DNA from: Pseudonocardia sp. SCN 73-27
GTDB taxonomy: Bacteria; Actinomycetota; Actinomycetes; Mycobacteriales; Pseudonocardiaceae
Direction of reading: 5' to 3'
NCBI GenBank assembly: GCA_001725415.1
Contig: MEGH01000054.1
Coordinates: 1-64,000 of the forward strand
DNA: 64,000 nucleotides
Each line of letters opens with the position of its first letter. The stretch's first letter is position 1. Positions 44,397 to 46,849 of this stretch are shown in pieces. Position numbers and translations under genes: made by a program. Below the pieces are notes generated by a model. That model was not told where the DNA came from. It did no database searches and saw only the letters and a program-made list of their open reading frames with translations.

Positions 44397-46772
44397 TCAC
44401 AGCAGGCTGAGCTGTTCGCCGTCGCGCCCGGCTCCCGCGTCCGGGGTGCCGGTCCGCCCGCGCAGCCGCATCGTCGTCACCGGCCGGTCGAGGCCGTGAC
44501 GGCGCAGCAGGGGCGTGACCCGCTCCCCCAGCGCCCGGCGGTAGTCGGCGTCGACGTAGGCGCCGCGCCGGTAGAGCTGGGCGTAGCGCTCGACCAGGCC
44601 GGGGTGCTCCCGGGCGAGCCACTGCAGGAACCACTCCCGGGTGCCCGGCCGCAGGTGCAGTGCCAGCACGGTCGCCCCCGTGGCGCCGGCCGCCGCGATC
44701 CGCTCCAGCACCGCGTCGAGCGCTTCGGCCGAGTCGGTGAGGAAGGGAAGGACCGGCGCGACCATGACCCCGCAGGGCAGCCCGGCGTCGGTGATGCGGC
44801 GGACGAGGTCGAGCCGGGCCCGCGGCGACGGCGCCCCCGGTTCCAGCCGGGAGTGCAGCTCCTCGTCGAGCAGCGCGATCGACACTCCGAGCCCGACGGG
44901 GACGTCGTCGGCCGCAGCGGCGATGTCGGGCAGGTCGCGGGTGAGGACGGTGCCCTTGGTGAGCACCGAGAACGGCGTCCCCGTGCCGGCCAGGGCACGC
45001 AGGATGCCGGGCATCAGCCGGTAGCGGCCCTCGGCCCGCTGGTAGGGGTCGGTGTTGGTGCCCATCGCGACCGGCTCGCGGCGCCACCGCGGCCTGCGCA
45101 GCTCCCGGTCGAGGACGCGCGCCGCGTTGACCTTGACGACGATCTGGCTGTCGAAGTCGGCGCCCGCGTCGAGGTCGAGGTACGTATGGGTGTTGCGGGC
45201 GAAGCAGTTGTGGCTGATGACGCCCTCGGCGACGAAGTCGCCCGTGCCGGTGGTGATGTCGAACATCGGCCGACGCGTGCCGAGCTCCCGGACGGCGACG
45301 ACCTGCGCGCCTTCCTGCGCGACGACGGCGCCGGCCATGTCGCGGACCGCGGCCGCGGTCGGGTCGACACGGCCGACCAGCCGCGCGACGGTGCGGGCGT
45401 CGCCCGGCAGGACCGCCTCGACGAGTCCGCCGCGCCGGCCCCCGTCGATGCCGCCGTGGGCCGTGGACGACGCGGCGAACCGCAGCCCCAGCCCACGACC
45501 GGCCGAGACCAGCCACTCGACCAGCTCGCGGCCGCGCACCCCGGCCACCCGCACCACCAACCCGTCGGCGGTGCGGACACCCGCCGCGTCGAGCACACCG
45601 GCGACGAAACCGGCGCACCAGTCGAGCCCGGGCCGCAGCGGCCACCCGCTCGGCCCGGCCGGGACGCCCGCTCCCGCACGGACACCCCCACCGGCCGGCA
45701 GCGGCACGCGCCGCGGCCCGGACTCTTCACCCTCACGGCCGGGTCCGCGGGTCCGGACCCGCGGACCCGCCGCCGGGCGGCTCGGGACCGGCGACCACAC
45801 GCCGGGCTCGCCGCGGACCCGCGACCACCGCCCGGGTCCCGCCGGAGCGGGCCGCCCGGCCGAGGCCGGACGCGCGGACCCGGACGCCGCCGGACGCTCG
45901 GGGCCCGGCACCCCGGGACCGCAGCGACCGGCGGGCACCGCCGTGGGACCGCTCCCGTCGCGCGGAAGACCCGCCAGGCCACTCCGCACCGAGGCGCCGG
46001 CCGCGACGACGCCCACCGGAACCTCGTCAGCAGCGTGGTTCTCCGGCAGGCCGGGATCGGCGGCGGCAGCGACCATCCGGTGCAGCCGCGCCAGCGTCTC
46101 CAGCGGCAGCCTCTCCGACGGGAAGGTCTCCCCCTCGTGCGCCGCGGGATGCGCCGCATCGGCCCGGGCGACCCCGCACAGGTACCCGGCCCGGTAGCCC
46201 GGGGTCCACTCCGGCGCCTCCACCGGCGCCCCCGGCCCGAGCAGCGTCTCCCCTGCACGCAGGTGCGGCCGGCGCCCGCTGCGACACCATCCGGGCGCCA
46301 CGTGCCGCCAGCCCCGCTCGGTGAGGAAACGGTGCTCGCCGCTGGTGACGAGGCGCGTGCCGTCGCTCAGCTCGACCTCCCAGCCCTCCCGGTCGGTCCC
46401 CCAGTGGGCGAGGACCTCGGTGCGGACGTAGCGGCGGACACCGTCCGGGCCCGTCTCGGTGCCGAGGACCGCGTCGCCCACGCCGAGCTCGGCGATGGGC
46501 CGCGTCCGCCCGTCGGCCAGCAGGACCCTCGTCGCCCCGTCGAGGCAGTAGACGCACGCGTGCGAACAGCCGCGGTACGGGTTGACCGTCCACGAGAACG
46601 GCATCGGCGAGCCACCCGGCACCCTGTTCAGCATCGACTTCGCCTCCACCTCGTGGAACACCGTGCCGGCGAAATCCGGCGTCCGTACGCTGCGCAGCAA
46701 CCCGCGCAGCCCCGGCAGCGCCGCATCGCCACCCACGCCGTCGTCCCCGACCTGCTGTCCGCTCCACCGCAC
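44397..46772 (-). CDS. Rv2578c-family radical SAM protein interrupted by an intein
   Basis: 791 residues as translated. N-extein 1-75, intein 76-522, C-extein 523-791; spliced product 344 residues, close to Rv2578c (340). N-extein: VRWSGQQVGDDG, HEVEAKSMLNRVPGGSPMPF and YRGCSHACVY with Cys69 and Cys73 of the CxxxCxxC cluster. C-extein: CFARNTHTYLDLDAGADFDS, WRREPVAMGTNTDPYQRAEG, MPGILRALAGTGTPFS and VMVAPVLPFLTDS. The third cluster cysteine is intein residue 1 before splicing and the +1 Cys afterwards. GTG at 46772 chosen by match to Rv2578c. An SOS box lies nine bases upstream (46781-46796). Exact radical reaction unknown; LexA control suggests a DNA-damage role. Confidence 0.93.
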   Translation of the reverse strand: MRWSGQQVGDDGVGGDAALPGLRGLLRSVRTPDFAGTVFHEVEAKSMLNRVPGGSPMPFSWTVNPYRGCSHACVYCLDGATRVLLADGRTRPIAELGVGDAVLGTETGPDGVRRYVRTEVLAHWGTDREGWEVELSDGTRLVTSGEHRFLTERGWRHVAPGWCRSGRRPHLRAGETLLGPGAPVEAPEWTPGYRAGYLCGVARADAAHPAAHEGETFPSERLPLETLARLHRMVAAAADPGLPENHAADEVPVGVVAAGASVRSGLAGLPRDGSGPTAVPAGRCGPGVPGPERPAASGSARPASAGRPAPAGPGRWSRVRGEPGVWSPVPSRPAAGPRVRTRGPGREGEESGPRRVPLPAGGGVRAGAGVPAGPSGWPLRPGLDWCAGFVAGVLDAAGVRTADGLVVRVAGVRGRELVEWLVSAGRGLGLRFAASSTAHGGIDGGRRGGLVEAVLPGDARTVARLVGRVDPTAAAVRDMAGAVVAQEGAQVVAVRELGTRRPMFDITTGTGDFVAEGVISHNCFARNTHTYLDLDAGADFDSQIVVKVNAARVLDRELRRPRWRREPVAMGTNTDPYQRAEGRYRLMPGILRALAGTGTPFSVLTKGTVLTRDLPDIAAAADDVPVGLGVSIALLDEELHSRLEPGAPSPRARLDLVRRITDAGLPCGVMVAPVLPFLTDSAEALDAVLERIAAAGATGATVLALHLRPGTREWFLQWLAREHPGLVERYAQLYRRGAYVDADYRRALGERVTPLLRRHGLDRPVTTMRLRGRTGTPDAGAGRDGEQLSLL
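45207..46547 (-). other. intein (447 residues) with decayed LAGLIDADG region
   Basis: Splicing blocks: A, CLDGATRVLLADGRTRPIAE (residues 76-95); B, LVTSGEHRFLTERGW (141-155); F/G, MFDITTGTGDFVAEGVISHN (503-522) followed by Cys+1. All splicing residues (Cys1, block B His, His-Asn, Cys+1) are present. Two LAGLIDADG helices remain: GYRAGYLCGVARADA (192-206) and DWCAGFVAGVLDAAG (384-398). In the first the usual GDG reads ADA, and about 117 residues of Gly/Pro/Arg-rich low complexity (262-378) separate them, so homing activity is doubtful. Confidence 0.9.
45740..45769. repeat. 30-bp perfect palindrome inside the intein
   Basis: CGGGTCCGCGGGTCC (45740-45754) is followed without a loop by its exact reverse complement (45755-45769). 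It lies in the low-complexity insert of the intein's endonuclease region. Confidence 0.9.
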
Positions 46773-46780
46773 AGATGGAT

Positions 46781-46796
46781 TCGAACATGTGTTCGA
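46781..46796. promoter_or_regulatory. LexA SOS box between radical SAM gene and gntK
   Basis: TCGAAC-ATGT-GTTCGA is an exact match to the mycobacterial LexA box TCGAACn4GTTCGA. It is nine bases before the radical SAM start and about 54 before the gntK start, so LexA could repress either or both. I recall that M. tuberculosis Rv2578c is in the LexA regulon. Confidence 0.85.
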
Positions 46797-46849
46797 TGTC
46801 TCGGCAACCCCGCACACCACCCCGGTCGCCGACCGTGCATCCTGAGCCG

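Follow-up and report, generated by a model that had tools for sequence, protein, structure and literature searches.

An intein at the third iron–sulphur cysteine codon of a putatively LexA-controlled radical SAM gene of Pseudonocardia

Introduction

In the locus examined here, an intein interrupts a radical SAM gene at the codons of its iron–sulphur cysteines, a few bases downstream of a LexA box, which raises the question of whether splicing and SOS control form one switch or whether the intein merely resides in an SOS-type gene. The window, by which we mean the whole stretch of 64,000 nucleotides that was analysed, comprises positions 1-64,000 of the forward strand of contig MEGH01000054.1 of Pseudonocardia sp. 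SCN 73-27 (assembly GCA_001725415.1). Our literature search found no published experiment on the window protein.

Results

Architecture of the precursor gene

The features of the locus are the following:

44397..46772, minus strand: precursor gene, Rv2578c-family radical SAM protein with intein, 791 aa (open reading frame, profile scores)
46548..46772, minus strand: N-extein, residues 1-75, with Cys69 and Cys73 of CxxxCxxC
45207..46547, minus strand: intein, residues 76-522, 447 aa, from Cys1 to His-Asn
44397..45206, minus strand: C-extein, residues 523-791 and stop codon, first residue +1 Cys523, with PF04055
45648..46010, minus strand: Pro/Arg/Gly-rich linker inside the apparently decayed endonuclease domain, residues about 255-375, in frame, flat codon-position G+C
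45186..45227, minus strand: intein/C-extein junction, counterpart of the putative serine-integrase attB in four relatives, empty here
46781..46796, no strand assigned: perfect LexA (SOS) box TCGAACATGTGTTCGA, exact match, 8 bases to the start codon
46850..47398, plus strand: divergent gluconokinase (GntK type), TIGR01313 174.6 bits (cut-off 113.75), start codon by frame

The precursor is read from a GTG codon at 46772 on the minus strand over 791 residues and matches NF038136, the NCBIfam model of intein-containing Rv2578c family radical SAM proteins, over its full length with 792.7 bits (cut-off 700), and NF038135, the model of the Rv2578c family, with 518.7 bits (cut-off 430). Both scores uphold the family assignment made in a preliminary description of this DNA, and so too its remark that intein-bearing members are known, since NF038136 models exactly such an architecture, an already catalogued one that the window gene joins. 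The CxxxCxxC motif and a PF04055 Radical_SAM match of 38.1 bits (cut-off 29.5) place the protein in the radical SAM superfamily, and by family membership it is predicted to bind a [4Fe-4S] cluster and SAM.

The cysteine motif reads C69-x3-C73-x2-C76, in which C76 is residue 1 of the intein, whose last residue is Asn522; the third motif cysteine is therefore C76 in the precursor and C523 in the product. The intein thus sits exactly where the preliminary description had put it, at the third Fe-S cysteine, with Cys1 at residue 76 and Cys523 at +1, and its borders at 76-522 reproduce by computation the spliced length of 344 residues. The further claim that CxxxCxxC is complete only after splicing locates the third ligand correctly, but the string itself is already present in the precursor, because intein Cys1 fills the third place. 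Splicing exchanges this Cys1 for Cys523 and joins the remaining enzyme.

Conservation and decay of the intein

In a survey of 150 genomes of the taxonomic family, 125 matched, and 55 of 115 near-full-length family records carried an intein-sized insert. In all 55 the insert is an intein at the identical codon, which rules out several insertion sites used by different inteins; the position of the intein is not due to chance. A Cys-type cis-splicing intein is defined by Cys1, a block-B His, a C-terminal His-Asn and a +1 Cys, Ser or Thr. Cys1, the block-B His, the penultimate His, the Asn and a +1 Cys are present in 71 of 71 inteins, the window's included, collected with a pattern that fixed Cys-3 and Cys-7 and accepted C, S, A or T as first residue, a choice of residues at the final two positions and C, S or T at +1; every one of the 71 lies at the third cysteine of the motif. 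General intein profiles scored the window protein below their cut-offs (TIGR01445 20.4 against 24.5; PF14890 20.2 against 35.8), and the sole solved-structure match to the window intein was weak, to the DnaB intein 6bs8 (E 0.0084).

Lengths among the 71 inteins range from 143 to 447 aa, the short ones being without endonuclease, and the window intein is the longest of this first set because of an eroded linker of 120 residues. Three near relatives found later (L243, L244 and L245) have inteins of 458, 448 and 519 aa, in which the linker is in frame, but differs in length and sequence; in the window, residues about 255-375 are without codon-position G+C structure. An active LAGLIDADG homing endonuclease has an acidic residue in both LAGLIDADG motifs. 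The second motif of the window intein, judged by eye, reads FVAGVLDAAG, with Ala in place of the Glu of relatives such as L013, and the homing endonuclease looks decayed. Against L243 and L244, dN/dS was 0.05-0.09 in the exteins, 0.07-0.15 in the N-splicing part, 0.17-0.33 in the C-splicing part and 0.29-0.47 in the endonuclease part and linker; against the more distant L245 the contrast was less clear, the N-splicing part (0.39) coming near the endonuclease part (0.44).

The extein tree shows 20 changes of intein presence, of which starred branches force at least 11, so that the intein has often been gained or lost. A family match is present in 58 of the 62 genomes from the window's genus, and among the 40 genes with both junctions on one fetched stretch, 36, the window's included, hold both junctions within one open frame; in the other four (G050, G082, G634 and G654) the junctions lie in different frames. 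The frame changes of these four fall inside the intein (L159, L164, L241 and L242), two of the genomes being assembled into 2-3 contigs, and the genes are either broken copies or mis-sequenced ones.

The LexA box and SOS control

Rv2578c itself is a member of the M. tuberculosis LexA regulon. The perfect LexA box that had been noticed at the promoter of the window gene is indeed there: TCGAACATGTGTTCGA matches exactly at 46781-46796, as the sole exact LexA-box match within the 64,000-nt window. With up to two mismatches the window holds 10 matches against 2.77 expected from shuffles, and the whole genome has 10 exact places against 0 for a reversed control pattern. The box has the form shared by the actinobacterial LexA regulon, TCGAAC-N4-GTTCGA, and is conserved in relatives; LexA binding in the window organism is putative. 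It is the single LexA box in the 77-base gap (window 46773-46849) between the radical SAM gene and the divergent gluconokinase gene, and both may therefore be affected. A further exact box in the window genome is found immediately ahead of an ORF resembling AlkB by eye (L006 1501-2148).

The box was compared across 157 relatives, 86 without and 71 with intein (window included), a set drawn non-randomly from 150 family and 295 class genomes, among them two paralogues and two genes with a broken frame. Allowing one mismatch or none, we find the box in front of 59 of the 86 intein-less and 68 of the 71 intein-bearing genes (exact in 31 and 48, respectively); of the 157 control stretches 600 bases further on, none has a box when one mismatch is allowed and 1 has one when two are. 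Where a box is present, its start falls at −21 to −28 from the start codon for 56 of the 59 genes without and 58 of the 68 genes with an intein. The lower share among intein-less genes is largely due to a genus-rich group (g66) that has a 3-mismatch variant near −46. A tree-controlled test found no significant association of intein and box over 11 independent pairs (median p 0.5), with averages of 2.0 pairs in which the box went the same way, 0.3 the other way and 8.6 without difference, the differing pairs being too few to reach 0.05. The proposal that LexA and splicing form a joint switch is thus not supported: the box is equally placed in intein-less relatives and shows no significant association on the tree. 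Because it precedes both gene classes at a like distance, SOS control appears independent of the intein, and it looks ancestral to the family.

As for what the enzyme does, a DNA-repair-like role may be inferred; relatives carry an SplB-like annotation, on weak similarity. In the accessible part of a study of Streptomyces venezuelae (PMC9380542), the LexA consensus is tCGAAC-N4-GNNCGa, and mitomycin C raises vnz_31145, a radical SAM gene bound by LexA, 19.97-fold; the gene is considered there in terms of UV damage repair. It is a candidate Rv2578c orthologue, with an SOS box that is a poor match and stands at another distance. A repair role of the Rv2578c family is called speculative in the portion available of a paper on the Streptomyces phage Samy (PMC12924846).

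Integrase elements in the gene

In four genomes, all Pseudonocardiaceae, a serine-integrase element is inserted precisely at the intein/C-extein junction:

L156 1779-15622: element of G126 (Kutzneria buriramensis)
L157/L158: element of G109
L171 and L161: element of G148
L261 and L262: element of G651, of the window's genus

The break in the gene of G126, G109 and G148 falls directly behind ...SHN, and each side carries TGY of the cysteine codon. The two halves are separated by 13.8 kb in G126 and by 22.2 kb in G109; in G148 they are on two contigs. The left ends of these three elements share TGYTCRTGTTCACT, exact in 3 of 390 family genomes; a pattern search gave matches in 10 genomes, three of them exact, with nine matches at 2 mismatches. 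The integrases of G126 and G109, 80% identical, lie about 60 bases inside the element and have Resolvase, Recombinase and zinc-ribbon domains, and that of G148 is split over two frames. FtsK/SpoIIIE-domain proteins are typical of actinomycete conjugative elements; the G109 element encodes one, and large proteins of G126 and of a further genome, G016, are similar to it. The G651 gene is cut at the same junction, its halves on two contigs, and its integrase is 25-30% identical to the others; two distantly related serine-integrase lineages use the junction.

Rejoining the flanks restores open reading across SHN/CFAR in all four genomes. The left 20 bases of the resulting putative attB match the 71 intein junctions with a mean of 0.78-0.86, against 0.32-0.38 for 86 intein-less sites and 0.26-0.28 for random positions, and the right half matches both classes (0.81-0.89 intein-bearing, 0.78-0.83 intein-less). 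Since the left-half match is restricted to intein junctions, the site would depend on the intein; one half of the attB is intein and the other extein, and it seems to be confined to intein-bearing alleles. By the same comparison, the empty junction at 45186..45227 may be a usable attachment site in the window genome. Dyad symmetry of the attP was rejected as proof of the crossover point, being clear in G126 only, where 16 of 25 positions are complementary around the TG of the cysteine codon; it is weak in G148, and in G109, G651 and G016 that point is not the best centre.

Neither integrase type is confined to this gene. At E <= 1e-60 in 390 genomes, relatives of the G109 integrase occur in 8 genomes and lie at the junction in three, so that a constant association was rejected; a 63% relative in G490 sits off-junction, with an intact intein gene elsewhere in that genome. 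The 23 relatives of the G651 integrase (in 21 of 386 genomes) have the radical SAM gene in the flanks of one, G651 itself.

In G126, G109, G148, G651 and G016 the integrase, or a remnant of it, is found immediately inside the N-side end, on the same strand as the host gene and behind the host's exact LexA box. In this orientation, DNA damage could switch on integrase transcription and mobilise the element with no need for a LexA box on the element itself. Codirectional orientation as a rule was rejected, because a prophage-like element in G220 and phage Samy point the other way (the former from an integrase-like ORF recognised by eye, the latter from the strand of the att repeat), and 3 of 5 lineages is no enrichment.

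Other places in the gene are also occupied. In G016, an element with a related integrase cuts an intein-less allele at the Cys codons. In G063 (L181 592-1978, reverse strand, and L182), an N-terminal fragment ends at the Cys codons, a complete second Rv2578c-family gene follows 31 bases on and the C-terminal half is on another contig; no integrase was seen there, and perhaps an element carries a spare copy of its own target. The prophage-like element of G220 (L167 1093-11111), with a long ORF that by eye resembles a tape-measure gene, splits the gene near NTDPYQ. Samy has its attB in an Rv2578c-family gene, according to the portion of its description that is available (PMC12924846); in all 7 loci examined, its 12-base att repeat has a counterpart with 1-2 mismatches on the complementary strand, 139 bases upstream of the third-Cys codon. 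No phage-borne relative turned up when viral contigs were scanned once with the window protein as query.

Discussion

The architecture, the conserved splicing residues, the LexA box and purifying selection are all observed at this locus, and efficient, unconditional splicing is the default reading that we infer. It has to be weighed against the possibility that splicing has been lost and the gene is on its way out, as the eroded endonuclease part and linker and the frame changes inside four of 40 same-genus inteins might indicate; yet the window ORF is open over 791 codons with its catalytic residues kept, and against the nearest relatives dN/dS stays at 0.05-0.15 in the exteins and the N-splicing part, so that we consider a dying gene very improbable. 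A further alternative is gated splicing. The intein-bearing MoaA of Pyrococcus abyssi is an Fe-S radical SAM protein and likewise an oxygen-sensitive enzyme. In its intein, as described in the available parts of two publications (PMC3922620, PMC10663303), an oxidised Cys-3/Cys1 pair blocks splicing, and the window has the same arrangement, Cys73 being Cys-3 and Cys76 being Cys1. By analogy, oxidation might form a Cys73-Cys76 disulfide that blocks the first splicing step, or a metal or cluster at Cys69, Cys73 and Cys1 might do so, and an oxygen-sensitive enzyme would then mature only in a reducing cell, behind a second gate separate from LexA. Cys-3 and Cys1 occur in 71 of 71 inteins, the former fixed by the search pattern, but Cys-3 is imposed by the radical SAM motif and its conservation is therefore no evidence of selection for redox gating; chance of the insertion site suffices. 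No further intein cysteine is conserved among the 71, intein and SOS box show no significant association, and 60 of the 115 family records manage without an intein. Redox gating of the window intein is possible, and taken together these forms of conditional splicing strike us as unlikely.

A different question is why the intein is here at all. It may be no more than a tenant of a site favoured by other mobile elements too, a brief conserved segment in a dispensable gene that attracts homing endonucleases and integrases alike; the gene is split in at least four places: the intein junction (four genomes), the Cys codons of intein-less alleles (G016 and, by inference, G063), near NTDPYQ (G220) and the Samy site. 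We give this about an even chance, as such splits occur in only 5 of 125 matching genomes (G016, G063, G109, G126 and G148); it is compatible with a working, SOS-controlled splicing gene and addresses the presence of the intein, not the function. A more specific idea, which we hold only tentatively and rate below even, is that the intein-made attB is an attachment site built by one mobile element for another, with capture of the integrase by the host's SOS promoter. A search of non-subscription papers, mostly by title and abstract, found no paper on an intein-junction attB or on regulation of this intein.

Set beside known systems, the window gene is like the NF038136 family, with the intein at the same third cysteine, and differs in an intein that the eroded linker makes longer than the others of the first 71. 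The MoaA intein belongs to another enzyme family and is archaeal, and the redox effect was measured there, whereas the window case is read from its sequence. Samy shares with the junction elements a serine integrase and the target gene family, but its site, on the available account, is neither the Cys codons nor the intein junction. The mycobacterial DnaB and SufB inteins are actinobacterial as well and, in the sources as available, proposed stress sensors, but reside in other host proteins.

Taking these observations together, we consider it probable that this is a working radical SAM gene under LexA control, with a cis-splicing intein lodged in its most conserved codons. When DNA is damaged, LexA repression would be relieved and the precursor produced; the intein would then excise itself, probably without needing a signal, and join Tyr75 to Cys523, which would become the third Fe-S ligand. 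The intein would be a selfish leftover with a decayed homing endonuclease that persists because its excision is exact, and SOS control would be a property of the enzyme, not of the intein.

For the family, this means that SOS control is separable from the intein, a later tenant of these enzymes. If the intein-made attachment site were confirmed, it would be a case of nested dependence of mobile elements, and if host SOS promoters do drive integrase genes, the arrangement would offer a simple test system for it. As SOS control is common to the family, with or without intein, a role of Rv2578c-family enzymes in DNA damage becomes testable.
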